Below, piece after piece: positions 16,685-45,979 of a stretch of 45,979 bases of DNA. The position numbers and the translations under genes were made by a program. Source of the stretch: a virus; the IMG/VR virus record IMGVR_UViG_3300040801_002588, positions 1 through 45,979 of that record; one strand, 5' to 3'. Under the pieces are notes generated by a model. That model ran no database searches. It worked only from the letters and a program-made list of their open reading frames with translations, and was not told where the DNA came from. Numbering within the stretch: position 1 is the stretch's first letter; each line of letters opens with the position of its first letter.

Positions 16685-16695
16685 GCTAAACAACA

Positions 16696-31692: not shown

Positions 31693-31721
31693 TGTCTCTC
31701 TCCTGCGCTGCTTGTGAACAT

Positions 31722-31737
31722 CCCGCAGGTTTGCGGG
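31722..31737 (-). promoter_or_regulatory. Leader hairpin upstream of exported-protein gene
   Basis: A perfect 6-bp stem, CCCGCA / TGCGGG, with a 4-base loop, 30-45 bases before the start codon, inside the short gap between the upstream terminator and the gene. A promoter for this gene must lie in the same ~70 bases; a weak -10-like TATGCT is visible near 31748. Whether the hairpin is part of a promoter or of the mRNA leader is open. Confidence 0.35.
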
Positions 31738-31760
31738 GTCATTCTTAGCATAGCACGCGG

Positions 31761-31809
31761 AGAAAAAAAGAAGCCCCCAGTGAAAGGAGAATGCATACTC
31801 ACCGGAGGC
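31761..31809 (-). terminator. Intrinsic terminator between 297-aa gene and exported-protein gene
   Basis: On the - strand GCCTCCGGTGA pairs with TCACTGGGGGC (11 pairs, two of them G-U) around a 15-base loop and is followed by TTCTTTTTTT. It should stop transcription from the long - strand operon before the exported-protein gene, implying separate expression of that gene. Confidence 0.8.
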
Positions 31810-31927
31810 TAAGGTGCGGCCAATGAAGAGAAACCGCACTAGGGGTTGGTGGGGCAACTAACAGGAACTTGAGTATCTGTGCTAACAGTTACGGGTAAGT
31901 TTATGGTCCTGCTCGCTGCCCCGTCGA

Positions 31928-32821: not shown

Positions 32822-32830
32822 GATATCTCC

Positions 32831-32923
32831 TTAGATGATGCCCATTTTAATCCACCAGTACAGCAGCCACAGGACAACAAGGATGCTACAGGTGAGGATG
32901 ATTTTGTCTTCTAAACGTCTCAC
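32831..32923 (-). CDS. Possible 30-aa single-pass membrane peptide (GTG start)
   Basis: Starting at GTG, the peptide has four charged residues in its first seven, then a long hydrophobic stretch (IILTCSILVVLWLLYWW) and ends IKMGII, 9 bases before the next gene's start. No good ribosome site is visible, so translation is uncertain. It fills the only gap between two genes in this operon. Confidence 0.4.
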   Translation of the reverse strand: MRRLEDKIILTCSILVVLWLLYWWIKMGII

Positions 32924-32944
32924 GCAGCATAATTTACCACAGAA

Positions 32945-33376
32945 TCAATCAGGTTCAGCTTGTTTGCGCTTGATTGTCGAGTACACGCCACTCTCAATAT
33001 CTTCAATCTTTACTTCAGATTTGGGACGGATATCGAAATACAATTTGCCATTGCGTTCACCACTGATGTGAACTGTGCTGTCCTTGTACTTGCGTTGTTC
33101 AAAGGAACCATCAGGATAATTCAGAATAATCTTGTCATTCCGCTTGGTAACAATAGGTGGTTCGTCAGCATGAGCAGACAGGCTGGAAATCATCATGGCA
33201 AACAGAACCATCATAACGATGAGGATCAGGGCCAGCCAGGTCAGGTTAATGTGCCCATCCAGCCAACGCTCCCACTTGGCGGAGCACTGCCCGCACCATG
33301 GGCAGCTGCCGTTATCACGGACATTGATGGAGCGACGATGGCAATGCGTGCACGTGCTATCCCAGTTCGGGTTCAT
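32945..33376 (-). CDS. Zinc-ribbon/transmembrane protein with periplasmic domain
   Basis: 143 residues. Residues 9-28 hold two C-x2-C pairs (CTHC and CPWC), a zinc ribbon expected on the cytoplasmic side. A single hydrophobic helix lies at about 44-65 (LTWLALILIVMMVLFAMMIS) and is followed by S-A-H-A, which could be a signal-peptidase site. The remaining ~75 residues form a charged beta domain outside the inner membrane. The start overlaps the upstream gene's end by 20 bases. The unusual mix of metal finger, membrane anchor and external domain suggests a membrane-signalling or superinfection-related role, but nothing in the sequence proves one. Confidence 0.65.
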   Translation of the reverse strand: MNPNWDSTCTHCHRRSINVRDNGSCPWCGQCSAKWERWLDGHINLTWLALILIVMMVLFAMMISSLSAHADEPPIVTKRNDKIILNYPDGSFEQRKYKDSTVHISGERNGKLYFDIRPKSEVKIEDIESGVYSTIKRKQAEPD

Positions 33377-33551
33377 TTTGAGCTTCCTTCTCGCGTTTGA
33401 TCAGGTCAGCCAGCCGGGTGGGAATGACGATGTTGTCGTTACAGCTGGGACAGCAGACGCCATGATCCTTGGCTGGGGCAGGGTTGTTCTTTTCGTAAAG
33501 GGTGTACAGGACGGTACCACAGAAGACACAAGGTTCAGGTTGGGACATCAT
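33357..33551 (-). CDS. Small zinc-ribbon protein
   Basis: 64 residues from the ATG at 33551, chosen for the GAGGAG 7 bases upstream. Two cysteine pairs, C-V-F-C (8-11) and C-P-S-C (34-37), make a zinc ribbon, followed by a charged helix. The start overlaps the preceding stop (ATGA). Likely cytoplasmic; function unknown. Confidence 0.65.
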   Translation of the reverse strand: MMSQPEPCVFCGTVLYTLYEKNNPAPAKDHGVCCPSCNDNIVIPTRLADLIKREKEAQNEPELG

Positions 33552-33748
33552 CGACAGGCTCCTCGATGGATTAATGCAACAGCTGTAATAGAAGATGGGA
33601 TCATTATGCAAAGTAAGGACACAACGACCCATTCCGGTATTGAAATGCCAAATGCCTTGAGTACAAGGAAAGCAGCAGTGGCTCCGAAAGCCATCCAAGA
33701 CAATGTTTTGGCGACCCAGATAATACGATCAATCGTCTTGGTCTGCAT
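33548..33748 (-). CDS. Small membrane protein, two helices
   Basis: 66 residues with a GAGGAG ribosome site. Two hydrophobic segments (WVAKTLSWMAFGATAAFLVL and WVVVSLLCIMIPSSITAVAL) are separated by a short I-S-I-P-E turn; short charged ends. The size fits a holin-like or membrane-modifying peptide, but N4-type lysis genes normally lie in the late region, so this is only a possibility. The stop is coupled to the next gene. Confidence 0.6.
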   Translation of the reverse strand: MQTKTIDRIIWVAKTLSWMAFGATAAFLVLKAFGISIPEWVVVSLLCIMIPSSITAVALIHRGACR

Positions 33749-33980
33749 CGTCAGGCTCCTCGTCAGATATGCCAGGTTGGTTTATCAGTAGCTGGTTCAG
33801 GTCGTGGATAGGAAGGATATAACAACCTGTGTCGCCCTGGATGGACTGCCAACGGCTTGACAGTTCGATCAGGTCAGTCAGCAACTCGGCGTACTGTTGG
33901 TTACGCTCTCGCAGTTGATACAGGGCATTGCCTGCAATATCGCCGATCTCCACGGCAGAGTGTGGTTTACTCGTTGTCAT
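33729..33980 (-). CDS. Hypothetical 83-aa protein with acidic tail
   Basis: Helical and charged (ALYQLRERNQQYAELLTDLI), ending in a strongly acidic tail (DEEPDDADQDD). It overlaps both neighbours (14 bases upstream, 20 downstream). It resembles the other short acidic-tailed helical proteins of this cluster, though it lacks the RIAELE motif. Confidence 0.6.
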   Translation of the reverse strand: MTTSKPHSAVEIGDIAGNALYQLRERNQQYAELLTDLIELSSRWQSIQGDTGCYILPIHDLNQLLINQPGISDEEPDDADQDD

Positions 33981-34173
33981 CTGGGTTCCAATAATTGTCT
34001 AATGCCGCTGGGTAACTTTCGGTTTGTACTACCCATACAATATCAACGTCAGGCTCAGCGTCGAGGCACTGCTCTTCGGCGTGGTCGTTGTCTTCGGCAT
34101 GGCATGCGAATCCCATTGGGTTATCGCCGGGAGCACACAGCTTGGTTTTGTACAGCACGATGTAATTATTCAT
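33967..34173 (-). CDS. Hypothetical 68-aa protein
   Basis: Start set at ATG 34173 because the preceding gene's last codons supply GGGAG 7 bases before it. The sequence begins MNNYIVLYKTK and contains many Asp, Glu and Asn plus two Cys, with an acidic C-terminus (WNPDDNE). The upstream gene's C-terminal Asp-Glu codons overlap this gene's ribosome site and start. No family recognised. Confidence 0.6.
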   Translation of the reverse strand: MNNYIVLYKTKLCAPGDNPMGFACHAEDNDHAEEQCLDAEPDVDIVWVVQTESYPAALDNYWNPDDNE

Positions 34174-34414
34174 CTTCATCTCCCAGCGCAGGTGGCGTCC
34201 AGCCCAGTTCAATCAGCTTGTTGTGGATGGCGCTTTCTTTCATGGCAGGGGACAAGTTGTATTCAACAGTGACGGTTTGTCCAGAACGAATGGCTTTCAG
34301 TTCTGCTTCCAGTTTATCGATGCATTCAGCGGCTTTTTTCAGAACATCCCATCCCGGTTGATTCTTGTCCCCGATTGCATACAGCGCCAATAATCTTTTC
34401 TTTAGAGCACTCAT
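34166..34414 (-). CDS. Small helical protein of the coiled-coil cluster (82 aa)
   Basis: Starts MSALKKRLLALYAIGD at the shared ATGAGTG-type junction and ends in G-D-E-D-E. A central helix holds ECIDKLEAELKAI, a variant of the repeated coil seen in neighbouring genes. The last codons (GGAGATGAAGATGAA) double as ribosome site and start of the next gene. Confidence 0.6.
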   Translation of the reverse strand: MSALKKRLLALYAIGDKNQPGWDVLKKAAECIDKLEAELKAIRSGQTVTVEYNLSPAMKESAIHNKLIELGWTPPALGDEDE

Positions 34415-34752
34415 TCTTCACCCTCCAGGGCCGCTTCAAGTCTTTCCAGGTAAGAACCAACAACCGTTACACCATGCCCGATAGCCGCGTTTCCGAGGCG
34501 GGTATCTTCCCCCATCTCATCGGTTATTTCCCGAACCTTATCCAGCTTCGCTTCCAGTTCAGCATTCCGCGTATCCAGTACTGCCACCTGTTCGCATATA
34601 TCGTCCAGTGCTTTATCCAGTTCAGCGATGCGTTCCGTCAAACGGTTCAATTCTTTAACGGAATTTACGCGGCGTGAGGACATCGGACGGAAACAGTATT
34701 GAGTCTTCCAATATTGCTTGTAAGTTTTTGCTGGATTGATAAAGTCACTCAT
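34411..34752 (-). CDS. Coiled-coil protein of the mosaic small-gene family (113 aa)
   Basis: Starts MSDFINPAKTY by overlap with the upstream stop. Residues about 40-85 are a coiled coil, including ERIAELDKALDDICEQ, which is closely repeated in the 34944-35324 gene (QRIVELDKTLDDICEQ), and a later NAELEAKLDK. Ends in E-G-E-E. The shared block implies duplication or recombination between these genes. No catalytic motif; a binding or bridging role is plausible. Confidence 0.65.
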   Translation of the reverse strand: MSDFINPAKTYKQYWKTQYCFRPMSSRRVNSVKELNRLTERIAELDKALDDICEQVAVLDTRNAELEAKLDKVREITDEMGEDTRLGNAAIGHGVTVVGSYLERLEAALEGEE

Positions 34753-34951
34753 CGGTCAGTTCCTCCAGCATAAAAGCAGGAATGCTGTGGGTTTCAGCAA
34801 CATAGGAAATTAGTGCCCTATGTTTGCGTGTCCACTCACGAACGTTCCGTTTGTCTTGTTCCAGTTCAGCGATGCGACACTGTGGGCAAAAGTCGGGCGG
34901 TGCATAGCTGACTTTATGCTCGCACCCACTTCGGATCAGTTTGTCACTCAT
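34745..34951 (-). CDS. CxH...CxxC zinc-knuckle plus coil protein (68 aa)
   Basis: Start at ATG 34951 (MSDKLIRSG), which follows GGAGATGAAG of the upstream gene. Residues 10-25 hold C-E-H then C-P-Q-C, a likely zinc site, followed directly by RIAELEQDKRN, the family coil. A second gene at 35299-35451 has the same order (C-E-H, C-P-D-C, RIAELE), so the two are paralogues. Ends in E-E-L-T-D-E. Confidence 0.65.
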   Translation of the reverse strand: MSDKLIRSGCEHKVSYAPPDFCPQCRIAELEQDKRNVREWTRKHRALISYVAETHSIPAFMLEELTDE

Positions 34952-35324
34952 CTTCATCTCCAAGTGTCCGTTCAATCAGGGCGTGAAGTTCGTTATTCTT
35001 GTGTAGGAAAACATCTGCATAAACCTCTTGCAGCACAGCCTCCAGTTCAGCGATGCGTTTTTTATCTTCCTTCCACTCTCGCAAGTTGCGTTCATGGGTT
35101 TTGATCAGGCGCTTTTTCTGCTTTTTCAGTTCAGCGATGTGTTCCAGCAGGACGTCCATCTGTTCGCATATATCATCCAACGTTTTATCCAGTTCTACGA
35201 TGCGCTGATCTACTTCCTCTACATCGTACCAATCACCATCATCATCCTGGTGGTTTAACGCTGGCAGTTCTTCGCCCATATCGGTGAGGCAGTAGCATCT
35301 AAATTTCGTCAGGTTTCTCATCAT
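34944..35324 (-). CDS. Long coiled-coil member of the mosaic family (126 aa)
   Basis: Two adjacent ATG codons (35324, 35321) follow GGA; the first is used here. After an acidic N-terminal region (HQDDDGDWYDVEEVD) come three coil blocks: QRIVELDKTLDDICEQ, EHIAELKKQKKRL and KRIAELEAVLQEVYA. The last codons encode T-L-G-D-E-D-E and overlap the next start. It appears to combine modules found singly in neighbouring genes. Confidence 0.65.
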   Translation of the reverse strand: MMRNLTKFRCYCLTDMGEELPALNHQDDDGDWYDVEEVDQRIVELDKTLDDICEQMDVLLEHIAELKKQKKRLIKTHERNLREWKEDKKRIAELEAVLQEVYADVFLHKNNELHALIERTLGDEDE

Positions 35325-35451
35325 CAAAGTCCAACAGGCTCAACGCACGTTTGAGCATTTTGTTTTCAGTTTCCAGTTCAGCGATGCGGCAATCTGGACA
35401 GTTATCAATCCAGCCTTCTGCCATGTGTTCACACCATTTTCGCTCACTCAT
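35299..35451 (-). CDS. CxH...CxxC zinc-knuckle plus coil protein (50 aa)
   Basis: 50 residues from ATG 35451, which follows GGAAGATGAAG in the previous gene's end. C-E-H at 7-9 and C-P-D-C at 18-21 form the putative zinc site; RIAELETENKMLKRALSLL makes the coil; the tail is acidic (DFDDEKPDE). Paralogue of the gene at 34745-34951. Confidence 0.65.
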   Translation of the reverse strand: MSERKWCEHMAEGWIDNCPDCRIAELETENKMLKRALSLLDFDDEKPDEI

Positions 35452-35872
35452 CTTCATCTTCCAGTGCAGATTGCAGTTCGCCAGTTGCTTGCTCAACTGC
35501 GGAATATGGGCCGACGTGCCATGTACGCCTCCGTAGACTAATAATCTTTTCTCGCACCCTGCCTATCTTGTTCTTTTCTGCTGCCAGCAGCTTCAAAGCA
35601 CGGCCTGCGTCATCACGATTTCGCTGAATGCATTCGGCTGGGGTTTCGCCGTCCTTGAGGTACGGCTTGCAGGCTTCCAGTTCAGCGACTTTACGCAGCG
35701 CTTCACCCTCCGCTTTAATTGCTGCGTGTTCGCTGTCTTTGTATTCGTTCAGCAGGTTTTGTAGTTCAGAGATGCGGTCAAATGCTTTTTTTAGCTCGAT
35801 GTCACGGAGCTTGATAATCCGTACAAGGTCGTTGATCTTGGCGATTAGTGGTTCATTTTGTTTTTCCTTCAT
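35444..35872 (-). CDS. Coiled-coil protein (142 aa), first of the mosaic family
   Basis: Start coupled to the upstream stop (TGATG). Almost wholly helical with heptad-like Leu/Ile spacing; contains DRISELQNLLNEY and RKVAELEACKPY, related to the RIAELE block of downstream genes, and ends in A-L-E-D-E-D-E. Basic patches near the middle (KNKIGRVREKIISLRRR) could contact nucleic acid. It is the longest and most upstream gene of the cluster. Confidence 0.65.
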   Translation of the reverse strand: MKEKQNEPLIAKINDLVRIIKLRDIELKKAFDRISELQNLLNEYKDSEHAAIKAEGEALRKVAELEACKPYLKDGETPAECIQRNRDDAGRALKLLAAEKNKIGRVREKIISLRRRTWHVGPYSAVEQATGELQSALEDEDE

Positions 35873-36087
35873 CAGTCACGGTCCTGTTGTTGTGGCATCC
35901 TGACGATGGCACGCTTGTCACCGACAATCTGGTTGGCCAGAAACCAGACCATCCAGAATACGGCCATGCCGACGAACCAGGGCGCTTGTTGGCCCATAAT
36001 GAACACGGTAGCCAGGATACCCAGGCCCCAGCCCAGGATCTGTGACCACATGTTGGATCGACGTACGTACAGGACATGAACTTTCAT
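35872..36087 (-). CDS. Small inner-membrane protein, two helices (71 aa)
   Basis: GGAG lies 9 bases before ATG. Basic N-terminus (KVHVLYVRRSN), then two hydrophobic helices (ILGWGLGILATVFIMG and FVGMAVFWMVWFLANQIV) and a basic C-terminal tail, so both ends should be cytoplasmic. Overlaps both neighbours (ATGA, TGATG). Function unknown. Confidence 0.65.
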   Translation of the reverse strand: MKVHVLYVRRSNMWSQILGWGLGILATVFIMGQQAPWFVGMAVFWMVWFLANQIVGDKRAIVRMPQQQDRD

Positions 36088-36296
36088 CTGATTTTCTCCG
36101 CGACTCCTACTCTTTCCACGGTGTCGACTGTGACATCTTTGTAGCTATCACCGGCGGGTTCCCAGTTCAGGTCATCGTCATAGCGGCGATCCATGGCGCC
36201 AGCAGCAGCCATCTGATCATCCACAGCACGGACGAGTACAGTGGTGTACTCGTCACGCGCCCGAACCAGGGTCACTCTGAACAGTTGTTCTTTCAT
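36084..36296 (-). CDS. Hypothetical 70-aa protein
   Basis: The ATG at 36296 is used; the TTG four codons earlier is less likely. Mixed alpha/beta and acidic: begins MKEQLFRVTLVRARDEYTTV, then many Asp and Ala. It follows a gap of ~165 bases after the 36461 gene. Coupled to the next gene by ATGA. No family recognised. Confidence 0.55.
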   Translation of the reverse strand: MKEQLFRVTLVRARDEYTTVLVRAVDDQMAAAGAMDRRYDDDLNWEPAGDSYKDVTVDTVERVGVAEKIR

Positions 36297-36460
36297 CAGG
36301 TTTTCCAAAAATAGGTGGGACGGGGTACGCGATGACTGTACCTGGAGTGTCTAGAATTTCCGTAGCCGGAGTAATCTCTTACAGGGAGATCAACCCCTGC
36401 ACCGGCACCGTCCCATTGAACAGTTATAATAGGTGAAGCAGCCCGGGCGGCTTCAGAAAC
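36297..36460. other. Intergenic gap with weak inverted repeats
   Basis: A 164-base gap in an otherwise overlapping operon. On the - strand it contains AGCCGCCCGGGCTGCT, a near-perfect palindrome just after the 36461 stop, then a A/T-rich CCTATTATAACTG that could serve as a -10 region. A promoter or processing site for the downstream small genes is possible but not proven. Confidence 0.35.
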
Positions 36461-36685
36461 TTAGTGAATCTCGTCAGGTTCTTCTTCTTCTTCTTCGACC
36501 TGCGCTTTATCCAATTCTGCGTACTCCAGAACTTTGATTTCGTCGTCCAGCTCGTTGATACGCTGGCTCAGTGTCTGGAAGATGCTGAAGCACAGGCTGC
36601 GCCAGTCAACAGGCACATTCTTCTGGTATGCAGCGTCGGCTGCTTGCAGCAGTTCAATGACAGTAACGGGTTTGGTTTCAGACAT
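36461..36685 (-). CDS. Hypothetical 74-aa helical protein with polyglutamate tail
   Basis: AGGAG ribosome site; start overlaps the upstream stop (TAATG). Helical throughout (VIELLQAADAAYQKN, then LSQRINELDDEIKVLEYAEL, a coil similar in style to the RIAELE family) and ends with six consecutive Glu then P-D-E-I-H. Function unknown. Confidence 0.6.
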   Translation of the reverse strand: MSETKPVTVIELLQAADAAYQKNVPVDWRSLCFSIFQTLSQRINELDDEIKVLEYAELDKAQVEEEEEEPDEIH

Positions 36686-36915
36686 TAGTAGATCTCCTTG
36701 ATGGATAGGACTTTGTGGATGTCAGGGTCGTACACTTCGTCGAGCTTGGCAGCCATTTGTTCGCGGGCACGGATGCCAGCGATGGTGCGTAAGGGTGGAC
36801 CATCAAAGCCTCGGGGCATGGCTTCCTGGGCACTGATGAAAAACGTCATCACTTCATCCGTCTGCAGATGCCAGCACTGGACTTCATATTCTCTGGGTTG
36901 TGGTTTATGGGTCAC
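36685..36915 (-). CDS. Hypothetical 76-aa protein (GTG start)
   Basis: GTG start with GGAG 7 bases upstream. Contains YEVQCWHLQTDEVMTFFISA and a Pro/Gly loop, looking like a small alpha/beta domain. Coupled to the next gene by TAATG and preceded by a strong hairpin (36934-36961). Confidence 0.6.
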   Translation of the reverse strand: MTHKPQPREYEVQCWHLQTDEVMTFFISAQEAMPRGFDGPPLRTIAGIRAREQMAAKLDEVYDPDIHKVLSIKEIY

Positions 36916-36933
36916 TGCTTTCTCCGATTGAAG

Positions 36934-36961
36934 TTGGTGGGCACCGTCAGGTGCCCACCAA
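36934..36961 (-). promoter_or_regulatory. Perfect 12-bp hairpin in the - strand operon
   Basis: TTGGTGGGCACC / GGTGCCCACCAA around a 4-base loop (GTCA on the + strand), 19 bases before the GTG start of the 36685-36915 gene. No U-run follows on the - strand, so it is more likely an RNA-stability or processing element, or a weak terminator, than a full terminator. Loop identical to the one after the capsid gene. Confidence 0.55.
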
Positions 36962-37070
36962 CAATTAACGCTGGAATGGTTCCGGGCATTTATGAACGCC
37001 AGGGATGAACCCGGACCATTGTTCTATCGCCCTGCTCCCAGCATCACAGGACTGGAGTCATCCCCTATGG

Positions 37071-37349
37071 CTATGCGGAATTGCGTGCAACACGCATGTA
37101 TTCTGCCACAGCATGGCTGGCTTCCTTGGCTGCTTTTGCTACCTCGGAGAGCCCTACCTCGTCACGATCTTTCAGCTCACGCTCGTAGATCATTTCGAGG
37201 GCTTTGGCCAAGCTGTTGGGATAGGCTGGGTCATCTGTTTTCCAAATGATCTCGCCTTTGTTCTTGCCGGACTGCATGACATGCCTGCGTTGGATAATCC
37301 AACCGTATTGGTCTGATACGATGCGGCGTTTGCCGCAGTTGATGATCAT
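37071..37349 (-). CDS. Hypothetical 92-aa protein
   Basis: GGAGG ribosome site 7 bases before ATG; the start overlaps the preceding stop (ATGA). N-terminal beta hairpin (RRIVSDQYGWIIQRR), then W-K-T-D-D-P-A-Y-P-N-S-L and two helices (AKALEMIYERELKDRD, KAAKEASHAVAEYMRVA). The layout recalls small phage proteins of unknown role. It is followed by ~155 bases without a gene, holding an imperfect inverted repeat (AATGGT...ACCATT) and the 36934 hairpin. Confidence 0.6.
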   Translation of the reverse strand: MIINCGKRRIVSDQYGWIIQRRHVMQSGKNKGEIIWKTDDPAYPNSLAKALEMIYERELKDRDEVGLSEVAKAAKEASHAVAEYMRVARNSA

Positions 37350-37489
37350 GAGCTGCCTCCATCAGAGATGACGGCATACAGGAAATAAACAGCAGCAGCA
37401 CAGCCGACAATAAATCCGAAGACAGGTGCCGCTATGCCGATACCCATGACCAGCAAAATCAGACCCACTACAAACAGCATGTCTTTCAT
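37346..37489 (-). CDS. Small membrane protein, two helices (47 aa)
   Basis: GAGG 8 bases before ATG. MKDMLFVVGLILLVMGIG is the first hydrophobic segment, and PVFGFIVGCAAAVYFLYAVI is the second; tail S-D-G-G-S-S. The stop overlaps the next start. Too short for a usual ORF cut-off, but the ribosome site and both junctions are good. Confidence 0.65.
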   Translation of the reverse strand: MKDMLFVVGLILLVMGIGIAAPVFGFIVGCAAAVYFLYAVISDGGSS

Positions 37490-37492
37490 GGT

Positions 37493-37717
37493 TCAGTCCT
37501 CGTCGTTGCTGCCAAATCCAAACGGAGTACTACCCACAGCAGGTGCAGGCTGTTCTGTGGGGCTGGTGATCTCCACCTCTGCTGAGGTACTCGGCGGCTT
37601 GCGATTGGCAACGAAGCGGATTTCCACCTGACGGTTTTCGAGGGGAATGCCCTGACTGGATCGCAGGTACTCGGTGACGGCTTCTACCAATTCATCTTGG
37701 TTTAGTTGTACGAACAT
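37493..37717 (-). CDS. Hypothetical 74-aa protein
   Basis: GGAGG upstream. Begins MFVQLNQDELVEAVTEYLRS, then a beta strand (RQVEIRFVAN) and a Pro/Ser/Thr-rich tail ending F-G-S-N-D-E-D. It looks like a small alpha/beta protein with a flexible acidic tail, similar in style to SSB-type tails; function unknown. Confidence 0.6.
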   Translation of the reverse strand: MFVQLNQDELVEAVTEYLRSSQGIPLENRQVEIRFVANRKPPSTSAEVEITSPTEQPAPAVGSTPFGFGSNDED

Positions 37718-37719
37718 GC

Positions 37720-37998
37720 TTAAGCCTCCCGTGCAATTTTGCGAGCCATCTCCGCAAAGGAGTCATAGTTGGCGTCTTCGGTTTTTCGACACTCCGCACA
37801 CATCTGACGACGGCGGATGTCCCTCAATTCTTGTTGGCTACGGAATTCGAAGGCGCCACAGCTGCAGCGCACTCTGTACCAGTGCTGGTCATCGACCATG
37901 ACCCGCCCGTTACGCGGGTTAATGTTGGTATGGTCCACGTACTTGATCACCATGAACTGACCAACCTTCTGAAACGGTTGAAATCTAGGCTTCGCCAT
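37720..37998 (-). CDS. Zinc-ribbon protein (92 aa)
   Basis: ATG 37998 is used because AGGA lies 7 bases before it. C45-S-C47 and C67-A-E-C70 form a likely zinc site inside a beta region (WYRVRCSCGAFEFRSQQEL). Many Arg and Lys. It overlaps the end of the RuvC-like gene by 14 bases, so the two may be co-expressed; DNA or RNA binding is a reasonable guess. Confidence 0.65.
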   Translation of the reverse strand: MAKPRFQPFQKVGQFMVIKYVDHTNINPRNGRVMVDDQHWYRVRCSCGAFEFRSQQELRDIRRRQMCAECRKTEDANYDSFAEMARKIAREA

Positions 37999-38485
37999 TG
38001 GGATTTCCTTTTGGGTAAGTGTTGAACATATGGTGGGCAATCATCAGAGCATCTGCCCGACCATCAAGAAGGCCCCCACGAGGGCCGTACAGCTCGGCAG
38101 AAGGGTAAAGCCTGCTCGCGGTAGCTGCAATGGCTTGCTTCAGCCCTGCAGGCCCCCCAGCGGCCTTACGCGTTGGTAGCTTTGCTGTACGTTGCCACTC
38201 GCGGGGCCTGACAAGTTCGACTCCGATGCAGGTGGCCTCGGCAATGGCACAGACCATGCCGAAATTGAAGCCGAACTTGAAATTGCTCCCGGCACTGGTT
38301 CCCTGGATAGCATGCACATCTTCGATCCCAATCATGTAGGGATCCTTGAGCTTGATCCAGTCAAGCATGCGATGTGGCGGGAACTTGGGGCAGGGAGTAG
38401 GACGGAACTGTACCTGCTTGGTATCGGAATCGAGTAGACACAGGGCGCCAGAGGCGCCCGGGTCTATACCAAGGTAAAGCGCCAT
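37985..38485 (-). CDS. RuvC-like Holliday-junction resolvase
   Basis: 166 residues. RNase H-fold catalytic residues are visible: G-I-D8-P-G at the start, E55 in M-I-G-I-E-D, and D141/D145 in L-L-D-G-R-A-D-A-L-M-I-A. This is the four-acid pattern of RuvC nucleases. About the usual length (~170). Expected to resolve branched DNA formed by replication and recombination before packaging. The start is coupled to the SSB gene stop (TGATG), placing it in the replication operon. Confidence 0.85.
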   Translation of the reverse strand: MALYLGIDPGASGALCLLDSDTKQVQFRPTPCPKFPPHRMLDWIKLKDPYMIGIEDVHAIQGTSAGSNFKFGFNFGMVCAIAEATCIGVELVRPREWQRTAKLPTRKAAGGPAGLKQAIAATASRLYPSAELYGPRGGLLDGRADALMIAHHMFNTYPKGNPNGEA

Positions 38486-39255
38486 CAGCCGAACAGTGAT
38501 ACGGTCTCGGCTTTGTTGCTGTCAGCCGTGTCGTCACTGTCAGTGGTGTCCGGCCACGGCACATCGTCATCACTGACAGCCATGGTCGGGGTCGTTTCCT
38601 TGACCGGCGTGTAGTCATCCTTGACCCGCTCCGAGTGGAACGATTCCTTCCAGTCATGGATGAATTCAGGTTCGTCTGCGCCGTTCTCCAGCTCGGTGTA
38701 GGTGAAGCCTTTCGGGCTGAAGACCTTCTCGATCTCGTTCTTGAACTTGCGATCCTTGAGCCGCTTGCCATTGCGCCACTGGTTGGTTTCCACCTTCAGC
38801 AGACCCAACAGCACGGGCTTGTTCATCAGCTCGGGCAGGATCGGCTTCTCCACCGGCTCTTCGGAACGGGTGTTCCAGTCCCACAGCTTGATGATCTTGT
38901 TTTCCGTGTTCAACTGGTCGGCAGACTTGTTGGCACACAGTCTGGCCAGCTCTTCCATGCGCTCACGGGACGGCAGCGGACGGACTACGCCATCTTCACC
39001 GGTCATGGTGGACTTGCGGCCCTTGGCCTTGCCTGTCGTCACGTACAGCTTGGTACGCAGGTAGCAGCCAGTATCATCAGCCGGCTTGCAGTGCAGGTTC
39101 AGTTCAACGGCACCACCAGAGCTTTCGCCCAGGTAAGCCAGTTCGATGATGTACGGGTAGACACCCGTAGGTACTGGATCAAAGTTGGTACCTTTGGCCA
39201 GGAAATCGCCGGAGAGCTCTGTCTTCGGATCCATCTTGAGAATATCAATAGTCAT
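38485..39255 (-). CDS. Single-stranded DNA-binding protein (N4 SSB position)
   Basis: 256 residues; GAGGA upstream. The N-terminal part is beta-rich (GVYPYIIELAYLG, then VELNLHCKPADDTG and YLRTKLYVTTGKAKG), fitting an OB fold. The C-terminal ~50 residues are very acidic (DDDVPWPDTTDSDDTAD) and end in a short hydrophobic tip (SLFG), the usual form of phage SSB tails that bind partner enzymes. It lies between RecA-like ATPase/primase and the resolvase, as SSB does in N4. A possible hairpin promoter lies ~55 bases upstream. Confidence 0.75.
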   Translation of the reverse strand: MTIDILKMDPKTELSGDFLAKGTNFDPVPTGVYPYIIELAYLGESSGGAVELNLHCKPADDTGCYLRTKLYVTTGKAKGRKSTMTGEDGVVRPLPSRERMEELARLCANKSADQLNTENKIIKLWDWNTRSEEPVEKPILPELMNKPVLLGLLKVETNQWRNGKRLKDRKFKNEIEKVFSPKGFTYTELENGADEPEFIHDWKESFHSERVKDDYTPVKETTPTMAVSDDDVPWPDTTDSDDTADSNKAETVSLFG

Positions 39256-39308
39256 GAGTGTTCCTCACAGTAAGAAAAGAAATAGAGTTCAGTTAAAACT
39301 CCAATAAA

Positions 39309-39323
39309 CCGCCCGGAGGGCGG
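39309..39323 (-). promoter_or_regulatory. GGA-triloop hairpin upstream of SSB gene (possible vRNAP promoter or weak terminator)
   Basis: On the + strand, the template for the SSB gene, CCGCCC GGA GGGCGG forms a 6-bp stem with a purine triloop, the shape used by N4 vRNAP promoters. The SSB start is ~60 bases downstream, leaving a leader of about 50. On the - strand it is followed by TTTATT, so a weak intrinsic terminator for the preceding small gene is an alternative. Confidence 0.45.
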
Positions 39324-39324
39324 G

Positions 39325-39552
39325 TCAATCGGCAGGTCCAACAGCTTGCATACGAGTGATGACCTTGGGCATGTTGAATGTCATCTGCCGGGATGACGGA
39401 CAGTAGGTTGCCGTACCCAGAGGTACGGCTCCCATACGGTAGTTAGCGAGCATGTGCACCGCGTAGACGTCATTGCCGTGCTGGTCTTCATGCAGCCAGC
39501 GCAGAATAATATCCTGGGATTGCACGCCGCTAAGATTTTTGCGGGTATTCAT
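39325..39552 (-). CDS. Hypothetical 75-aa protein
   Basis: ATG 39552 overlaps the preceding stop and is preceded by GTGGAAGA. Beta-rich small protein: IILRWLHEDQHGNDVYAVHM, then YRMGAVPLGTATYCPSS. Ends just before the 39309 hairpin. Function unknown; it is co-transcribed with replication genes. Confidence 0.6.
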   Translation of the reverse strand: MNTRKNLSGVQSQDIILRWLHEDQHGNDVYAVHMLANYRMGAVPLGTATYCPSSRQMTFNMPKVITRMQAVGPAD

Positions 39553-39776
39553 TCTTCCACCTCGATGATTACGCCCCACTCCGGGGGCGGTTCAGGCAGG
39601 TCATGCAGACCAGAAATAAGGGCTTGGCGTACATCTTCTTTGAAGGTGGCCAACTGAGCATCCACGTCAGCACCCTCATACCGGGACACTCCCTTATGGG
39701 GAATGTCCCGGTTGATCCTGATCGTCACATGGATTTGATCCAGCATGATCCGATCATTCAGCAGCACGGTAGCCAT
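39549..39776 (-). CDS. Hypothetical 75-aa protein
   Basis: Coupled upstream by TAATG and downstream by ATGA. N-terminal beta segment (MLDQIHVTIRINRDIP), a helix (DAQLATFKEDVRQALISG), and a closing strand (WGVIIEVEE): a small alpha/beta sandwich layout. Function unknown. Confidence 0.6.
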   Translation of the reverse strand: MATVLLNDRIMLDQIHVTIRINRDIPHKGVSRYEGADVDAQLATFKEDVRQALISGLHDLPEPPPEWGVIIEVEE

Positions 39777-40405
39777 TACATTTCACACTGGTTGAGCTTG
39801 GCTCGCAGTCGGCTGACCTTTTCGTCCAGTTCCTCGTGATCCAGGTGTTCCTGGTAGAATTCCATGCCCGCTTTCAGAGCCTTCGGCGGACATACAGCCA
39901 GTGTATTGAGCTTGCCGTCCCAGACGCCATTCCAACCCATGTCCCACAGGCCTTCACGGTTGTATACGAAATACCGACCGGTCTTCTTGCCGTCGATAGT
40001 TTCGTCGTTCAGGTGGATCTTCAGTGTCTGGACTTCACGCCGCCAACGCTTCTCGTCATGGTCGTACTTGCGCTCGGAACCGACCGCATACTTGACGCCG
40101 TTCATTGTGATCTCACCCGCAGGTTCTTTGGTCTGCTCCCGTTCAAAGAATGCTTCCAGGAAGTCTTCGATCAGATCTTTGTTGCGGTTGAGCCAGATGC
40201 CCAGCAGTTGCACCGCGTAGTCAATCTCGGCTTTGGTGGGTTGCAGCCGACCGAACTCGACACCGGGGATGTAGGTAAAGATCTTGCCGCAGTTGTTGGT
40301 TTTGAGTACCAGCTTCTTGTCCTTGGGTTCCAGGTCAGCGTGATACTCGTGAAGGTTATATTTGGCCAGTAAAGGTTCACAGGCCTGGCGAAGTAGTAAT
40401 GCCAT
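39776..40405 (-). CDS. Hypothetical 209-aa protein of replication operon
   Basis: Follows a gap of 86 bases after the RecA-like gene. N-terminal helix region, then Y-I-P-G-V-E-F-G-R-L-Q-P-T-K, a helix (LIEDFLEAFFEREQ) and a beta region ending W-D-M-G-W-N-G-V-W-D-G-K-L. C-terminal coiled coil (DHEELDEKVSRLRAKLNQ). No known motif. Context suggests a replication or recombination accessory. Confidence 0.6.
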   Translation of the reverse strand: MALLLRQACEPLLAKYNLHEYHADLEPKDKKLVLKTNNCGKIFTYIPGVEFGRLQPTKAEIDYAVQLLGIWLNRNKDLIEDFLEAFFEREQTKEPAGEITMNGVKYAVGSERKYDHDEKRWRREVQTLKIHLNDETIDGKKTGRYFVYNREGLWDMGWNGVWDGKLNTLAVCPPKALKAGMEFYQEHLDHEELDEKVSRLRAKLNQCEM

Positions 40406-40491
40406 ATCTCTGTTTCCTGTAGTTTTAATGTGTTTGGGGAGCCCCGGAAAAATTTTGTGAATTTTCCAGAACCTCGGTTCTAACTAGTACA
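40406..40491 (-). promoter_or_regulatory. Intergenic region with three stacked inverted repeats
   Basis: The only sizeable gap in the replication operon. On the + strand: AGAACC TC GGTTCT (40468-40481), then GGAAAAATT...AATTTTCC, and GGGGAGCCCC. None has a U-run, so termination is uncertain. They could form a processing or attenuation element between the RecA-like and the 209-residue genes. Confidence 0.4.
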
Positions 40492-41217
40492 TTACTTGTA
40501 GTAGTCGTGAATGTGATCCAGCAGAGCCTGGGCATTGTTGTCGATGTAGGTATGATCCCGATCAAACATGCCAATGGCGCCACGGATGCGTTCGTGGATG
40601 GTGTCCCTGGTTATGTTGCACTGGAATACGTACTTGTAACCAAGTTCCTTCTCCAGATCAGTCGTTATCAGTAATGGGTTGTTGTAGGCCTCCAGATGGT
40701 TAAGGGTTACGCGCTTGGCCGCAATAACCGTGCAGAAGTAACTCTCTACCATGCCCTTGAGCGCACCCTTCATGGGTACGCGGACTTGGTAGATCATGTC
40801 TTTCTCGCTATACACGGTTTCGGTATGCGCAATGAAGATGATGTTCTTGCTGGAGCGGGTTACGTAGTTTTGCATGAGGTTCATGAAGTACATACGGTAC
40901 TCGCCCCAACCCTTGCGGGTGTCGTCTGCATACTCACCTTCGATGACGACGGTTTCATGCATGGACATCAAGCGGGTCAACGAGTCGATGACGATGGTAT
41001 GCACATCCTTCATCTTCTCGGCATTGGCTATGGCAGCCAAGACCTGCTTGGGATGGGTCACTGTGTGTTCCTGAAACTCGGACTTGAAGGGCAATTCCTT
41101 GCCATTCTCACAGTTCAGGTAAACCACACCCTTCGGGTTCTTCAAGGACATCAGGGAAAGGGATTTGCCGGTACCTGGTTCACCGGCGATCAGTACAAGG
41201 TTTCTGTTTACAGGCAT
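40492..41217 (-). CDS. RecA/Sak4-like P-loop ATPase
   Basis: 241 residues. Walker A at 12-19 (G-E-P-G-T-G-K-S), Walker B at 74-78 (T-I-V-I-D), and a later IIFIAHTE strand as in AAA_24 / Sak4 phage ATPases. These act as single-strand annealing or recombination-loading ATPases that work with SSB and a 5' exonuclease, all present in this operon. About the usual length (~240). A GGA-triloop hairpin, a candidate promoter, lies about 90 bases upstream inside the primase gene. Confidence 0.8.
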   Translation of the reverse strand: MPVNRNLVLIAGEPGTGKSLSLMSLKNPKGVVYLNCENGKELPFKSEFQEHTVTHPKQVLAAIANAEKMKDVHTIVIDSLTRLMSMHETVVIEGEYADDTRKGWGEYRMYFMNLMQNYVTRSSKNIIFIAHTETVYSEKDMIYQVRVPMKGALKGMVESYFCTVIAAKRVTLNHLEAYNNPLLITTDLEKELGYKYVFQCNITRDTIHERIRGAIGMFDRDHTYIDNNAQALLDHIHDYYK

Positions 41218-41231
41218 AGTTATCTCCGTGC

Positions 41232-43382
41232 TTATGCAGTGTCACGTTCGTGAATCTTACGGCTAGCAGAAACTAGGACGGTGGAAAGTACTTCCGCTTC
41301 AGGAAGCGGAGCTTCCAACTTGTTGTTAAGAGCCAGAACATTGTTCCGTATGGAGTCGATGTCTTGGCCCATGTCGACAAGGCAGAACGCATAACGTATG
41401 AGCTGGTTATTTCGATTGCCGTCTTCAGTATTATTGATGAACCAACGCTCAAGATTGTTGAGGGACGTTTGGCTGGCAATGATTTGTTTCCGCTCATCGG
41501 CCTTCTTGGTCTTCGGAATGAACTGCAAGGCGTCCAGTATCTGACCATCATTATACCAGTGTTTTCCCTTACAGGTCAGCCACTTACGTGATCTTTGGTT
41601 GGTTTGACGGTCACAATTGAACGGCAGCCAATCATAGATATTGGTCATGAAATCCTTGTAGTCCTTGGCGTCCAGTTGGAGCGTATGGCTCAAGGGCAGG
41701 ATCAGGCGGAAGCGATGCTTGTCATTGGTATGCCGCTTGGTGGTATGCATGATCCACTTGTAATCATCCAGCAGCATCTGGGCGGTCTCAATGGAGATGT
41801 CGTCATCCACATCGATCACGGCCAGGTTGACACCCGGCTTGGCATTGTCTTCGTTGCGATAGCCATTGCGCAGGTGATGGGCAACCCAGTGCAGATTAGG
41901 CGCCTGCAACAGTCGATACAGTTGATCCCACGGAGCCGTTTCGTTCTTGTACTCGGTGGTGATGTCTGTCGACCAGGATACGATCATCTGATCCAGATTG
42001 GTTTCCGGTACGACCTTGCCTGACAGGAATTCGATGTTATCGGTACCGAACTCACGCTTGATGTAGATACCGTGCTTGTAGCCATAGGCAATGGCCAGGT
42101 TCATCATCTCGCGTTTCTGTACTTCGGTGCCCTTGTAGAACGGCAGGTCTTCGACCAGATCAGACTGGGTCAGTTGCTGGTGGCTGGTCGCAATGTAATT
42201 GCACAGCTTCACGTAGGGTCGATCACGCTGCAGAATATTCTGGAATGCAGTACCTGAGTCTTCTGCCATGGACACGGCATAGTTCCAGTGATCCATGGTG
42301 ACGTAGATCGAGCTGTCGATGAAGGCATAGGCAGCAGCCAGCTTGGCTGTTTTGAAATGCCGATGCTCCATCTCGGCACGCATGGCTTCCTGATACTCGG
42401 AATACTCACTGGCTCGCTCTTCGCAATGCAGCATGTATTCCAGGAAGGCCAGTTCCACATCGTCGTCCAGTTCCATGGCAACGTGGAAGTTGGATGGGTC
42501 GGCCAGCAGGCCCAGCTGAGCGGACAGCTTGGACATGAAATCCTTGGCTGAGTCGTCGTTCAGCATGTCCCGGATTTCTGCTGCAGTACGTCCTGCCGGG
42601 CGGCAGCGAGTACGGGTATAACCAAAGAAGCAACGTCTGGCGTAGCCAATCTGTTGCATGTCATAGAATTCATCTTCGGTCTTGCTGCCATTGAGCAGCT
42701 TGGCTGGCGTGCCAAACAGCATCATGTTGGTTGGAGTGGAGCCGGTCAGGTCTTCACCACGCTGGTTATCACGGGTGTGCTTGACCAGTTTGGGTTTGAT
42801 GAAGCCCATGTCGAACAGTTCCAGAAAGGCATTCAAAGCCTCGGTATTGCCCAGCAGATTAGAGCCAATCTCGTCCATCTCGAAGTTCATGGATCCGGCA
42901 GAGGCCATCAGCAGCTTGGTACGCATCTGCTTGATTGCTGCAGCCGTTGCACTGTCAAAGCTGAACAGCAGGGGCCCACACATGTCGAATTCGGCTTCAG
43001 CCATCATCCGTTCGTTGTCTGGATCGGTCTTGTTCTGACGGGATCGGCGAGCAGCAATCTGGGTCAGATGCTGGTCGGCTATATGGGGGAATGTCTTGCC
43101 CAGGAATTGCTGGCGAAAGGTATTCACTACCTCACGTTCCAGCGTATTCACTGAGTAGCCCTTACCGGTACCGGATGGAGCCAGATTGATAGCGTACATA
43201 TTGACCGGTACAACCCGGTCACCGGGCAGATTGACCCGGGTACGCATCATGCTGGCTATCTTGCAGAAGTTGTAGGACACGATCAGGCGGAAGAAGATCG
43301 GATCCATGTTTTGTGTCTTGTTTTGGATAATTTCCACCACCCGTTCCATGGTTGGGTGGTAGACGCGTGGATAGTCGCTCAC
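41232..43382 (-). CDS. Primase-ATPase (AEP-type primase fused to P-loop domain)
   Basis: 716 residues. N-terminal half: Walker A-like A-P-S-G-T-G-K-G at 68-75, with Gly instead of Ser/Thr after Lys, then MNFEMDEIGSNL as the probable Walker B region, as in phage DUF3987-type helicase-like ATPases. C-terminal half: IDVDDD (524-529), then H-T-T-K-R-H, H-R-F-R-L-I-L-P-L and S-R-K-W-L, the D-x-D / H / R pattern of archaeo-eukaryotic primases. The pairing fits a primer-making helicase for the family A polymerase, like N4 gp43. The gene begins by overlapping the nuclease gene's end. Confidence 0.75.
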   Translation of the reverse strand: MSDYPRVYHPTMERVVEIIQNKTQNMDPIFFRLIVSYNFCKIASMMRTRVNLPGDRVVPVNMYAINLAPSGTGKGYSVNTLEREVVNTFRQQFLGKTFPHIADQHLTQIAARRSRQNKTDPDNERMMAEAEFDMCGPLLFSFDSATAAAIKQMRTKLLMASAGSMNFEMDEIGSNLLGNTEALNAFLELFDMGFIKPKLVKHTRDNQRGEDLTGSTPTNMMLFGTPAKLLNGSKTEDEFYDMQQIGYARRCFFGYTRTRCRPAGRTAAEIRDMLNDDSAKDFMSKLSAQLGLLADPSNFHVAMELDDDVELAFLEYMLHCEERASEYSEYQEAMRAEMEHRHFKTAKLAAAYAFIDSSIYVTMDHWNYAVSMAEDSGTAFQNILQRDRPYVKLCNYIATSHQQLTQSDLVEDLPFYKGTEVQKREMMNLAIAYGYKHGIYIKREFGTDNIEFLSGKVVPETNLDQMIVSWSTDITTEYKNETAPWDQLYRLLQAPNLHWVAHHLRNGYRNEDNAKPGVNLAVIDVDDDISIETAQMLLDDYKWIMHTTKRHTNDKHRFRLILPLSHTLQLDAKDYKDFMTNIYDWLPFNCDRQTNQRSRKWLTCKGKHWYNDGQILDALQFIPKTKKADERKQIIASQTSLNNLERWFINNTEDGNRNNQLIRYAFCLVDMGQDIDSIRNNVLALNNKLEAPLPEAEVLSTVLVSASRKIHERDTA
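41302..41316 (-). promoter_or_regulatory. GGAAGC-GGA-GCTTCC hairpin (N4 vRNAP-type promoter candidate)
   Basis: The + (template) strand has a perfect 6-bp stem and GGA triloop. Its core, GAAGCGGAGCTTC, is as I recall the same as in an N4 vRNAP promoter. It lies inside the primase gene, ~85-100 bases before the RecA-like start. An overlapping alternative hairpin, CCGCTTC AG GAAGCGG (41294-41309), cannot form at the same time. Confidence 0.5.
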
Positions 43383-44374
43383 AAGGCATCTCCGTTCGGT
43401 TGTAGTAGGCCTTGGGCCCTGTATTCAGCAGCCTGTTGGCAAATGGCGGATGCTGCACAGTAATTGCAGCGTTTGGGTGTCGAGGGTACTTCCACGACAA
43501 AGCCACCCTTCTTGCGCTGGTGCTCATACGCAGCTCCAGCATCTTCTCTGAAGTTCTTACTGGCTCGGGAAGCCAGCTCGGGCGGCTGTGAGTAGTACTT
43601 GTACTCGGATGGGTCTTGCCACAGTTCACGTGGCGTGCAGCGGGGCATCTCTTCCTGATCGGCATCAGCCAGTGCTTCCAGTTGCTCCAGCCGACTCTCT
43701 ATGTACTCACGGGTTTCACCCAGTGAGAGCAAGGGAATCTGCTTGGACAGCAGGGGTGCACCGGGATAGCTGCTATCGGACAGTGCCCGCATCGGGTACC
43801 AGTCGGTGAAGATGTAATTCACCGTCATGGTGGGTTTGGTAATGATCTCTGGATTGAGCCAGCGATAGATACTGCCCTGTAGTACGAAGTCATGTTCCTT
43901 GTTGGATTTCATGTACAGGCCCACTTTCGTGGATTTGATGTCCTGTACTTCTCCGTCCAGTACAAAATCGTACTTACCGGAGATCAACCAACCGTTCAGT
44001 TCCTTCTCTGTGCGTTGCTCCAGGTAGACCGGGATGTCATCACCAGATACTTCTGCTGGGTTGACCTTGATCCGTTCTATCACTTCGTTGGAGTAGCCCA
44101 GCTTCTCCAGTGCAGGTTCCAGATTGTTCAGCCAGGCCATTTCTACAGCCAGGTGGAAGGCACTGCCCATACGGGAGCTGAAGTTCTGGACAATATCCAT
44201 GGCAGGTGGCTCTGCACCCTGCTGTTGCATGCGACGGGTCAGGATCTGCATCTTGATCGGTCGGATCAATCCTGTAGCCGACACGGTTTGGCTATCCGGA
44301 TCAGCCAGATCGTAGTCATCTGCAGCCAGCCAGACTGCCATGGGTAAAGCAAGATTGTTGTAATTTGTCAGCAT
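43379..44374 (-). CDS. Cas4/RecB-type PD-(D/E)XK nuclease with Fe-S cluster
   Basis: 331 residues. H74 in G-S-A-F-H-L-A-V-E, D136 in G-K-Y-D-F-V-L-D, then D145-I-K147-S-T form the RecB-family nuclease site. C246, and C303-x2-C306-x5-C312 near the C-terminus, match the four Cys of a Cas4/AddB-like [4Fe-4S] cluster. It is likely the 5' exonuclease that makes single strands for the annealing ATPase and SSB, and may degrade host DNA. Start overlaps the preceding gene's stop by 7 bases; a GGA-triloop hairpin lies ~30 bases upstream. Confidence 0.85.
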   Translation of the reverse strand: MLTNYNNLALPMAVWLAADDYDLADPDSQTVSATGLIRPIKMQILTRRMQQQGAEPPAMDIVQNFSSRMGSAFHLAVEMAWLNNLEPALEKLGYSNEVIERIKVNPAEVSGDDIPVYLEQRTEKELNGWLISGKYDFVLDGEVQDIKSTKVGLYMKSNKEHDFVLQGSIYRWLNPEIITKPTMTVNYIFTDWYPMRALSDSSYPGAPLLSKQIPLLSLGETREYIESRLEQLEALADADQEEMPRCTPRELWQDPSEYKYYSQPPELASRASKNFREDAGAAYEHQRKKGGFVVEVPSTPKRCNYCAASAICQQAAEYRAQGLLQPNGDAL

Positions 44375-45021
44375 GTCGATTCCTGTTGCTGTTCCACTCT
44401 ACCCGCCGGAGGCGGGCAATAACGGGTAGGCGATTTTTCGTAGGGATTTAGTTCATGAATGTCCTCCGGGTTATTGACATAAAGTTCCAGGTGATGGGTC
44501 GTGAGATCGGTATCCCGAGGTTCGTCTTCCGGTAACAGGGCTTGAGCCAGGGGAATGGATGGCCAGTCATCTTCGTAGATGTAAACTATCCAGTTATACG
44601 GAAAGAAGTGCTGTGGTGTGTACCGGCCGATATAAGATTGATCGAACGGCATGCGGCCCATGCCACCACCTCCGGCACCAATATGAATTCGGGCCCGTTC
44701 CAGGTAGTAGCCCAGTGACGTCAGAATGGATGTGTTGCCGGGATGTCGTTGGGTAGCGATGTACAATCTACCTGCCCATCCGGGGTGGCGACCGCCCCAG
44801 GCAGGGGCATTCAGTTTCTTCCCGGAAATCCAGTTGTCTTCACTGTTCCATGGGGAGTGATGGGCATTGCTGATGTCGTGGGCATACCTCAAATCCCAAC
44901 CGAGGTACACGACACGGTTCTCGCCATTCCAGACGATTTGTTCCAGGTAGGCCACCAGCAGATGCTGTAGCTCGAATAGGCTATGTGGCGCCTGGAAATG
45001 CTCCAGTGCTTTGTTGGTCAT
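44368..45021 (-). CDS. Hypothetical 217-aa protein between polymerase and nuclease
   Basis: Weak ribosome site; start only 6 bases after the polymerase stop. Rich in Trp, Tyr, His and Gly. Notable blocks: LVAYLEQIVWNGENRVVYLG, a Gly-rich IHIGAGGGGMGRM and YNWIVYIYEDDWPSIP. No known fold recognised. Conserved position beside DNA polymerase suggests a replication accessory. Its last 20 codons contain the hairpin at 44402-44416. Confidence 0.6.
   Translation of the reverse strand: MTNKALEHFQAPHSLFELQHLLVAYLEQIVWNGENRVVYLGWDLRYAHDISNAHHSPWNSEDNWISGKKLNAPAWGGRHPGWAGRLYIATQRHPGNTSILTSLGYYLERARIHIGAGGGGMGRMPFDQSYIGRYTPQHFFPYNWIVYIYEDDWPSIPLAQALLPEDEPRDTDLTTHHLELYVNNPEDIHELNPYEKSPTRYCPPPAGRVEQQQESTC
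44402..44416 (-). promoter_or_regulatory. CCCGCC-GGA-GGCGGG hairpin (vRNAP-type promoter candidate)
   Basis: Perfect 6-bp stem with GGA triloop on the + (template) strand, within the end of the 217-residue gene and 28-42 bases before the nuclease start. An outer repeat, CTACCCG (44399-44405) and CGGGTAG (44423-44429), allows a competing fold. Same shape, loop and strand as the hairpins at 39309 and 41302. Confidence 0.45.
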
Positions 45022-45027
45022 CTCTGT

Positions 45028-45979
45028 TCATGTCTCTGCAAGGGTGTTGACTAGCTGCATGATGGTTTCGTGGTCGGCATTATTGGGAATACGCACCGAC
45101 TCTGCCCAGCTAGGATAATAGACTTCGAGCTCGGCTTCCAAGCCCACGTCAGGATGCTGGATTTCGGGTAGCTTGTTCCAGCGCATGCACTCGATCAGAT
45201 TGTCATTGACCCATTTCAGGCAATTCAGGTCATTGACGATCAGGTAGTACTGGCTGTCATGGATCTGGCAGATGGGCAGGATCTTCTCCCGCCACTTGGT
45301 CGACCAGACGCGGGTCATGAACATGTTCGCTGCATGCGTATTCAGCATGCCATAGGATTGACCCAGTGCGTTGACAGCCGTCTTGATCTCTTTCTGCGCC
45401 TGGTAGGGCAACGCCTTGTCTGCATTGAGCACTACACGGGGCAGTATGGGCGTGTGTAGCCGCAAACCAAAGGCCAACTCCATGTAGCCCTTCTGCTGCG
45501 CCTCACGCACCTTCTGCTGGGCCCAGGCGTCTGCTGTGGCATACAGCTCGTGGTACTGATCTTCGATCATCTTGGCTTCGTCTTTGGTCAAGCCAAAGTT
45601 CTTCATCAACGTGCGCCATGTGCCCATGTAGGTAAGGGCAAATGTAGGGCCTTTGGCCAGCTGCCTGAGTTCAGGATATTTCTGGGCAATGCTGTTGATA
45701 CTGTCCACAGCAGCAGGATCAATATCAGGCATTTGGTTCCCAAAATATGAGAATGCACGCAATGAATGCCCATCGTAGCCTTCGGTGTAGACCTTCAGCT
45801 TGTTGGGATCCTTGGTTTGCAGGGCAGATATTCTATCTTCCAGTGAACTGAAGTCTGCACCAACCATGACCCAGTTCTCGGACAGTTTGCCGACCGGCGC
45901 CCGGAAGCATTTCTTCACCGCCTTGGCGTACTTGGTGCCCGTAGACGGGATATTGGTCAGATTGGGATCTGATGAGGAC
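45028..45979 (-). CDS. DNA polymerase family A, C-terminal part (5' end outside window)
   Basis: The frame is open to the window edge (SSSDPNLTNIPSTGTKYAKA, then V-K-K-C-F-R-A-P), the usual block before motif A of Pol I-type enzymes. Motif A: GADFSSLEDRISA with the catalytic Asp (~45853). Motif B: R-Q-L-A-K-G-P-T-F-A-L-T-Y-M-G, where Phe occupies the position that sets dideoxynucleotide discrimination (Phe762 in E. coli Pol I). Motif C: I-H-D-S (~45250). It replicates the phage genome, like N4 gp39. The exonuclease domain, if any, lies upstream of the window. Confidence 0.95.
   Translation of the reverse strand, partial: SSSDPNLTNIPSTGTKYAKAVKKCFRAPVGKLSENWVMVGADFSSLEDRISALQTKDPNKLKVYTEGYDGHSLRAFSYFGNQMPDIDPAAVDSINSIAQKYPELRQLAKGPTFALTYMGTWRTLMKNFGLTKDEAKMIEDQYHELYATADAWAQQKVREAQQKGYMELAFGLRLHTPILPRVVLNADKALPYQAQKEIKTAVNALGQSYGMLNTHAANMFMTRVWSTKWREKILPICQIHDSQYYLIVNDLNCLKWVNDNLIECMRWNKLPEIQHPDVGLEAELEVYYPSWAESVRIPNNADHETIMQLVNTLAET

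Follow-up and report, generated by a model that had tools for sequence, protein, structure and literature searches.

Predicted virion RNA polymerase-type hairpin promoters within the replication module of an N4-like phage

The early hairpins of phage N4 are known from experiment to be read by the virion RNA polymerase (vRNAP). The question raised here is whether hairpins of this type may also act as promoters inside a replication module. We addressed it in a 45,979-nucleotide (nt) stretch of virus DNA (IMG/VR virus record IMGVR_UViG_3300040801_002588, positions 1 to 45,979; hereafter referred to as the window). The initial annotation of the window had noted three hairpins with a 6-bp stem and a GGA triloop upstream of nuclease, RecA-like and single-strand DNA binding protein (SSB) genes, and had proposed that vRNAP drives these recombination and replication genes internally. 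Our comparison of the window with related genomes indicates that the three hairpins probably represent vRNAP-type promoters placed internally, in the replication module.

Three GGA hairpins in the replication module

A scan of both strands identified exactly three GGA-loop hairpins with a stem of at least 6 bp in the window, all on the + strand and none on the − strand, at the positions given by the initial annotation (Table 1). The + strand is the template for the leftward genes, so the assignment of the hairpins to the template strand of replication genes was also borne out, as was their location upstream of the exonuclease, Sak4-like and SSB starts; occurrence on one strand only and before gene starts is what a promoter reading needs. 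In the direction of transcription, the arm encodes the DNA polymerase (C-terminal part), a 217-amino acid (aa) open reading frame (ORF), the exonuclease, the primase, the Sak4-like protein, a 209-aa ORF, the SSB and a Holliday junction resolvase, and the hairpins are placed in this replication module, beside the DNA polymerase, primase and SSB genes, and not in a left-end early region.

Dinucleotide shuffling of the leftward arm (29901–45979, 16,079 bases; 400 shuffles) yielded a mean of 0.09 such hairpins, with a maximum of 1 (the initial annotation had given a simple expectation of about 0.06 per 16 kb of one strand). Three hairpins were observed, and a chance origin is therefore excluded; moreover, none of the 400 shuffles contained three hairpins of any single loop. 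A relaxed search for further C-GRA-G cores with five of six stem pairs yielded none. The window also contains a 7-bp hairpin (GGGCGCC-AGA-GGCGCCC, 38443–38459, + strand) whose AGA loop is closed by the same C:G pair; it is located just inside the Holliday junction resolvase gene, at its start.

Mutagenesis has shown that vRNAP needs a C:G closing pair, a loop with a 5'G and a 3'A, and a purine at −11 (PMC4496689), and all these features are present in each of the three window hairpins. The same type of scan applied to N4 found three hairpins, at 90–102 (template loop GAA), 557–573 and 4546–4562 (both with template loop GGA), in agreement with the known promoters P1 (C-GAA-G), P2 and P3 (C-GGA-G); in each of them, C:G closes the loop and a GG stands at +11 relative to the loop centre. 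The N4 promoters thus resemble the window sites in being template-strand hairpins with a stem of 5–7 bp and a triloop with a C:G closing pair, a 5'G, a central purine and a 3'A, with a G start downstream, and in being read in the direction of the early genes. The inner stem and loop of P2 (GAAGC-GGA-GCTTC) recur in hairpin 41302. A G is found at +14 from the loop centre in all three window hairpins (44395, 41295 and 39302 for hairpins 44402, 41302 and 39309, respectively).

Table 1. Hairpins, predicted initiation regions and relevant genes of the window
Feature	Position	Strand	Details
Hairpin CCCGCC-GGA-GGCGGG	44402–44416	+ (template)	27 nt upstream of exonuclease (N4 gp42-like) ATG
Hairpin GGAAGC-GGA-GCTTCC	41302–41316	+ (template)	84 nt upstream of Sak4-like ATG
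Hairpin CCGCCC-GGA-GGGCGG	39309–39323	+ (template)	53 nt upstream of SSB ATG
Predicted initiation region, exonuclease	44395–44398	−	+11 to +14 from loop centre; followed by GGAACAGCAACAGGAATCGACATG with Shine-Dalgarno sequence
Predicted initiation region, Sak4	41295–41298	−	
Predicted initiation region, SSB	39302–39305	−	
Exonuclease, N4 gp42-like	43379–44374	−	phrog_2139, E 3e-110
DNA primase, N4 gp43-like	41232–43382	−	phrog_2135, E 4e-293
Sak4-like single-strand DNA annealing, RecA-family protein, N4 gp44-like	40492–41217	−	phrog_124, E 4e-40
SSB, N4SSB-like	38485–39255	−	phrog_743, E 3e-32
vRNAP, catalytic and C-terminal part (2932 aa)	20968–29766	+	phrog_2206, E 8e-189
Separate ORF (1419 aa), vRNAP N-terminal part	16696–20955	+	phrog_2206 positions 55–380, E 1e-14

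Conservation of the hairpins in the Schitoviridae

The gene content of the window, with a vRNAP and N4-like replication genes in N4 order, identifies it as part of the genome of a Schitoviridae (N4-like) phage. Its primase matched 469 phage records, all with less than 60% identity, and the primase-matching records opened that carry a family in their taxonomy line were all Schitoviridae. No near relatives were found at the DNA level, and conservation was therefore tested on protein-anchored neighbourhoods: 80 primase neighbourhoods were obtained from IMG/VR, giving, with earlier loci, 980 kb and about 110 neighbourhoods in all. GGA on the template strand was by far the commonest loop in this set (70 of 600 hairpins with a stem of at least 6 bp, vs. 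9 on the other strand). Template hairpins of the C-GGA-G and C-GAA-G types recurred at three junctions, before the exonuclease, after the primase (before Sak4) and after Sak4 (before SSB), where the numbers of different inner stems were 15, 14 and 7 (0, 2 and 0 on the other strand). The hairpins are thus kept at the same genes in relatives, with conservation of the pairing and the loop but not of the stem sequence.

The site on the exonuclease side was occupied in L004, L006, L151–L153, L157–L158, L161, L169 and others, and relatives also had hairpins just past the primase stop codon and between Sak4 and SSB. The ORFs following these hairpins were of about 326, 243 and 243 aa, corresponding to the same genes each time. 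A start codon with a Shine-Dalgarno sequence was present within 100 nt in 37 of 51 distinct hairpins, all from relatives and none from the window, vs. 22% of control hairpins. Similar hairpins were found along the early/middle arm of seven IMG/VR genomes with most of their length covered, and none of these seven had a C-GGA-G hairpin on the other strand.

For a family-wide test, we gathered 28 genomes of named Schitoviridae and one from IMG/VR and, over 30 genomes, counted all perfect triloop hairpins with stems of at least 5 bp. The commonest combinations of closing pair and loop on the template strand were C-GAA-G (90, vs. 21 on the opposite strand) and C-GGA-G (75 vs. 8). The pyrimidine-centred types C-GTA-G (35 vs. 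15) and C-GCA-G (17 vs. 10) were rarer and less strand-biased, as predicted by the purine rule; such a distribution would be expected if the polymerase requires the central base of the template-strand loop to be a purine. Among intergenic and gene-edge hairpins with stems of at least 6 bp, the counts relative to the local gene direction were 29 vs. 4 for GGA and 37 vs. 2 for GAA.

In the primase phylogeny, the N4 side formed one clade (100/100), and the window was located on the other side, in a supported set of 14 sequences (99/99). Three Vibrio phages were nested in the window's side, the remainder of which, referred to here as group C, is not a clade. Strict-type internal hairpins were present in 9 of the 10 genomes of group C, which includes the window, and in none of the 13 on the N4 side. 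The internal-hairpin pattern is therefore not common to N4 itself, since the N4-side genomes lack it. Early-region hairpin promoters of the same class as the window hairpins have been predicted in LIT1, LUZ7 and PEV2 (PMC3715699), in CB1, CB3 and CB4 (PMC6027278) and in KP8 (PMC6950046), with three or four given in these papers, in the early region only. The LIT1, LUZ7-like, CB4 and Ab2712 genomes fall in the window's half of the Schitoviridae, and the internal hairpins that we found in LIT1 (39591–39607), the LUZ7-like genome (40254–40268) and others are unmentioned in the main texts of those papers. No published report of internal hairpins was found in a literature largely limited to open-access main texts. 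The hairpin of the LUZ7-like genome (W08, 40254–40268) has a matching counterpart in the related phage LIT1 (W12, 35486–35500), both some 1.9 kb before the primase start, with a T:A closing pair in LIT1 and a C:G closing pair in the LUZ7-like genome.

The sequence past the stem provided a further lineage-specific feature. The base composition past the stem was flat in control hairpins, whereas C-GGA-G hairpins with a stem of at least 6 bp had a T directly after the 6-bp stem (0.89), no A at +13, a G at +14 (0.60) and an A at +16 (0.49). The G was located at +11/+12 in 75% of the hairpins on the N4 side and at +12 in 72% of those of the three Vibrio phages, and at +14 in the window's group, in 71% of 45 early and 67% of 15 internal hairpins. 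The +14 position was significant in binomial and Fisher tests, with P values of 4e-4 for the internal hairpins and 2e-7 for 46 further relatives.

vRNAP, RNAPII and alternative explanations

All five equivalents of the N4 catalytic residues R424, D559, K670, Y678 and D951 were aligned in the window vRNAP. PHROG profiles matched this protein, whereas a PDB sequence search with the vRNAP ORF gave no match. The window vRNAP is split in one frame, with the 1419-aa ORF followed by a TAA and then by the 2932-aa ORF, which has an AGGA and an ATG of its own. Among the 29 other genomes examined, the vRNAP ORF identified spans 3000–4100 aa. The internal hairpins share the loop, the strand, the position at gene starts and the lineage-specific spacing with the early hairpins, and early and internal hairpins are, on this sequence evidence, probably read by one polymerase. 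The strand, loop, position, conservation and downstream element of the hairpins, together with a vRNAP gene with its catalytic residues, underlie our prediction of internal vRNAP-type promoters. The initial proposal that vRNAP drives recombination and replication genes internally is supported at this level by hairpins on one strand, before gene starts and conserved with different stems, whose loop, strand and downstream G are common to the early hairpins of relatives and to the N4 promoters.

Several points weigh against this interpretation. Two of the three window hairpins lie within coding 3' ends, 44402 in that of the upstream 217-aa ORF and 41302 in that of the primase ORF, leaving 39309 as the sole fully intergenic hairpin. 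Taken alone, hairpin 41302 is the weakest of the three, because it overlaps a conserved stretch of the primase and is placed less exactly than its counterparts in relatives. N4 vRNAP reads A/G at −11, G at −10, G at −8 and C at +1 (PMC4496689), and the −8G, a major-groove contact that is invariant in N4, is present in only one of the window hairpins (41302), with a C in 39309 and 44402. The start G is at +11 in N4 and the corresponding G is at +14 in the window. The likeness to N4 vRNAP promoters claimed by the initial annotation therefore holds for the stem, triloop, C:G pair, purine and template strand, but not for the −8G and the 11-nt spacing from loop to start, and the window sites are a variant rather than strict members of the N4 promoter class. 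The −8G is also missing from the early hairpins of LIT1 and the Vibrio phages, and is therefore an N4-side feature. The labels of the spacing groups were partly set after the data had been seen, although the N4 side is still a supported clade. The regions containing the N4 contact residues K114, R119, W129, D901 and R904 were not alignable beyond the N4 side in 30 vRNAPs, and we therefore draw no claim from these residues. A review model places vRNAP promoters only at the left end, leaving the replication genes to RNAPII, and four vRNAP molecules have been judged too few for many promoters (PMC4496689). Finally, RNAPII, the known middle polymerase, was present in 21 of the 21 relatives searched.

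An alternative explanation, which we consider unlikely, is that the hairpins act in RNA, as intrinsic terminators or as mRNA-processing or stability hairpins. Their location at gene junctions would fit such a role, and 39309 passes a loose terminator rule (TTTATT tail). However, a T-run is absent at 44402 and 41302 and weak at 39309, and in the family profile T falls to 0.37–0.47 past the first base, with a G conserved at +14. The conserved loop is template C-G(G/A)A-G, the vRNAP code, and a UCC or UUC triloop is not a known requirement of RNA terminators. Furthermore, several hairpins are located 15–30 nt before a start codon, with the Shine-Dalgarno sequence next, and hairpins are also found between genes of one operon.

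It is still less likely that the hairpins are promoters for another polymerase, either RNAPII-like or a host RNA polymerase with a phage factor, with the hairpin signal adopted in this lineage. The genes concerned are middle genes in N4, read by RNAPII, and the 21 relatives searched have this enzyme, but N4 RNAPII promoters are AT-rich and are not described as hairpins (PMC4496689). The internal and early-arm hairpins of the same group share loop, strand and spacing, and sigma-70-like sites occurred in the arm at the frequency expected by chance (11 vs. 12.2 expected). No RNAPII match was found in the window, which is most simply explained by the absence of the early arm from this fragment. 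The loss of RNAPII as the cause of internal vRNAP promoters was rejected, given its presence in all the relatives searched, and internal hairpins would therefore add to RNAPII, not replace it. In Vibrio phage pVco-5 (W16, 14806–16899), an RNAPII subunit gene (phrog_2051) appears to be divided near profile position 130 by some 0.8 kb, with two stops; this could be an intron or an inserted gene. In two IMG/VR genomes (G004, 4796–5785, and G006, 5568–6557), the RNAPII subunit match is in two stretches, with about 70 profile positions missing between them.

The least probable explanation is that the hairpins serve replication or recombination as signals in single-stranded DNA (origin, primase or SSB loading) rather than as promoters. 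They cluster in the replication module, and d(C-GNA-G) mini-hairpins are unusually stable in DNA (PMC4496689), but the same hairpins occur across the early arm, where they are tightly associated with gene starts and with a G at a set distance downstream, and the choice of strand tracks gene direction.

Transcription of the replication genes and genome entry

We infer use of the window hairpins by vRNAP, its timing and a start base at +11 or +14. The template strand would fold into a 6-bp C-GGA-G hairpin under negative supercoiling, or when single-stranded during replication, and would be recognised by the vRNAP arriving with the DNA. RNA synthesis would start on the − strand at a G that lies 11–14 nt from the centre of the loop and precedes the Shine-Dalgarno sequence and start codon of the exonuclease, Sak4 and SSB genes. 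Replication and recombination genes may thus be transcribed directly by vRNAP, beside RNAPII, in the window's half of the Schitoviridae, possibly such that replication genes are expressed before RNAPII is made. Alternatively, transcription by vRNAP could help to bring the central part of the genome into the host; successive polymerases have been proposed as entry motors in work on DEV (PMC10925440).

We give roughly even weight to a broader proposal, in which hairpins over the whole early/middle arm would make vRNAP a general early/middle polymerase in half of the Schitoviridae, overlapping with RNAPII and perhaps powering entry in relays, with lineage spacings of 11, 12 and 14 nt. Hairpin promoters before the exonuclease, Sak4 and SSB genes throughout this lineage would restrict the accepted N4 model of vRNAP promoters at the left end only (PMC4496689) to N4's half of the family, and would raise the question of how hairpins extrude at a distance of 20–40 kb from the end that enters first. 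With its several dozen natural stems and its three spacings, the hairpin set would constitute a test bed for the reading of DNA hairpins by vRNAP and would offer a simple route to promoter annotation in Schitoviridae genomes.
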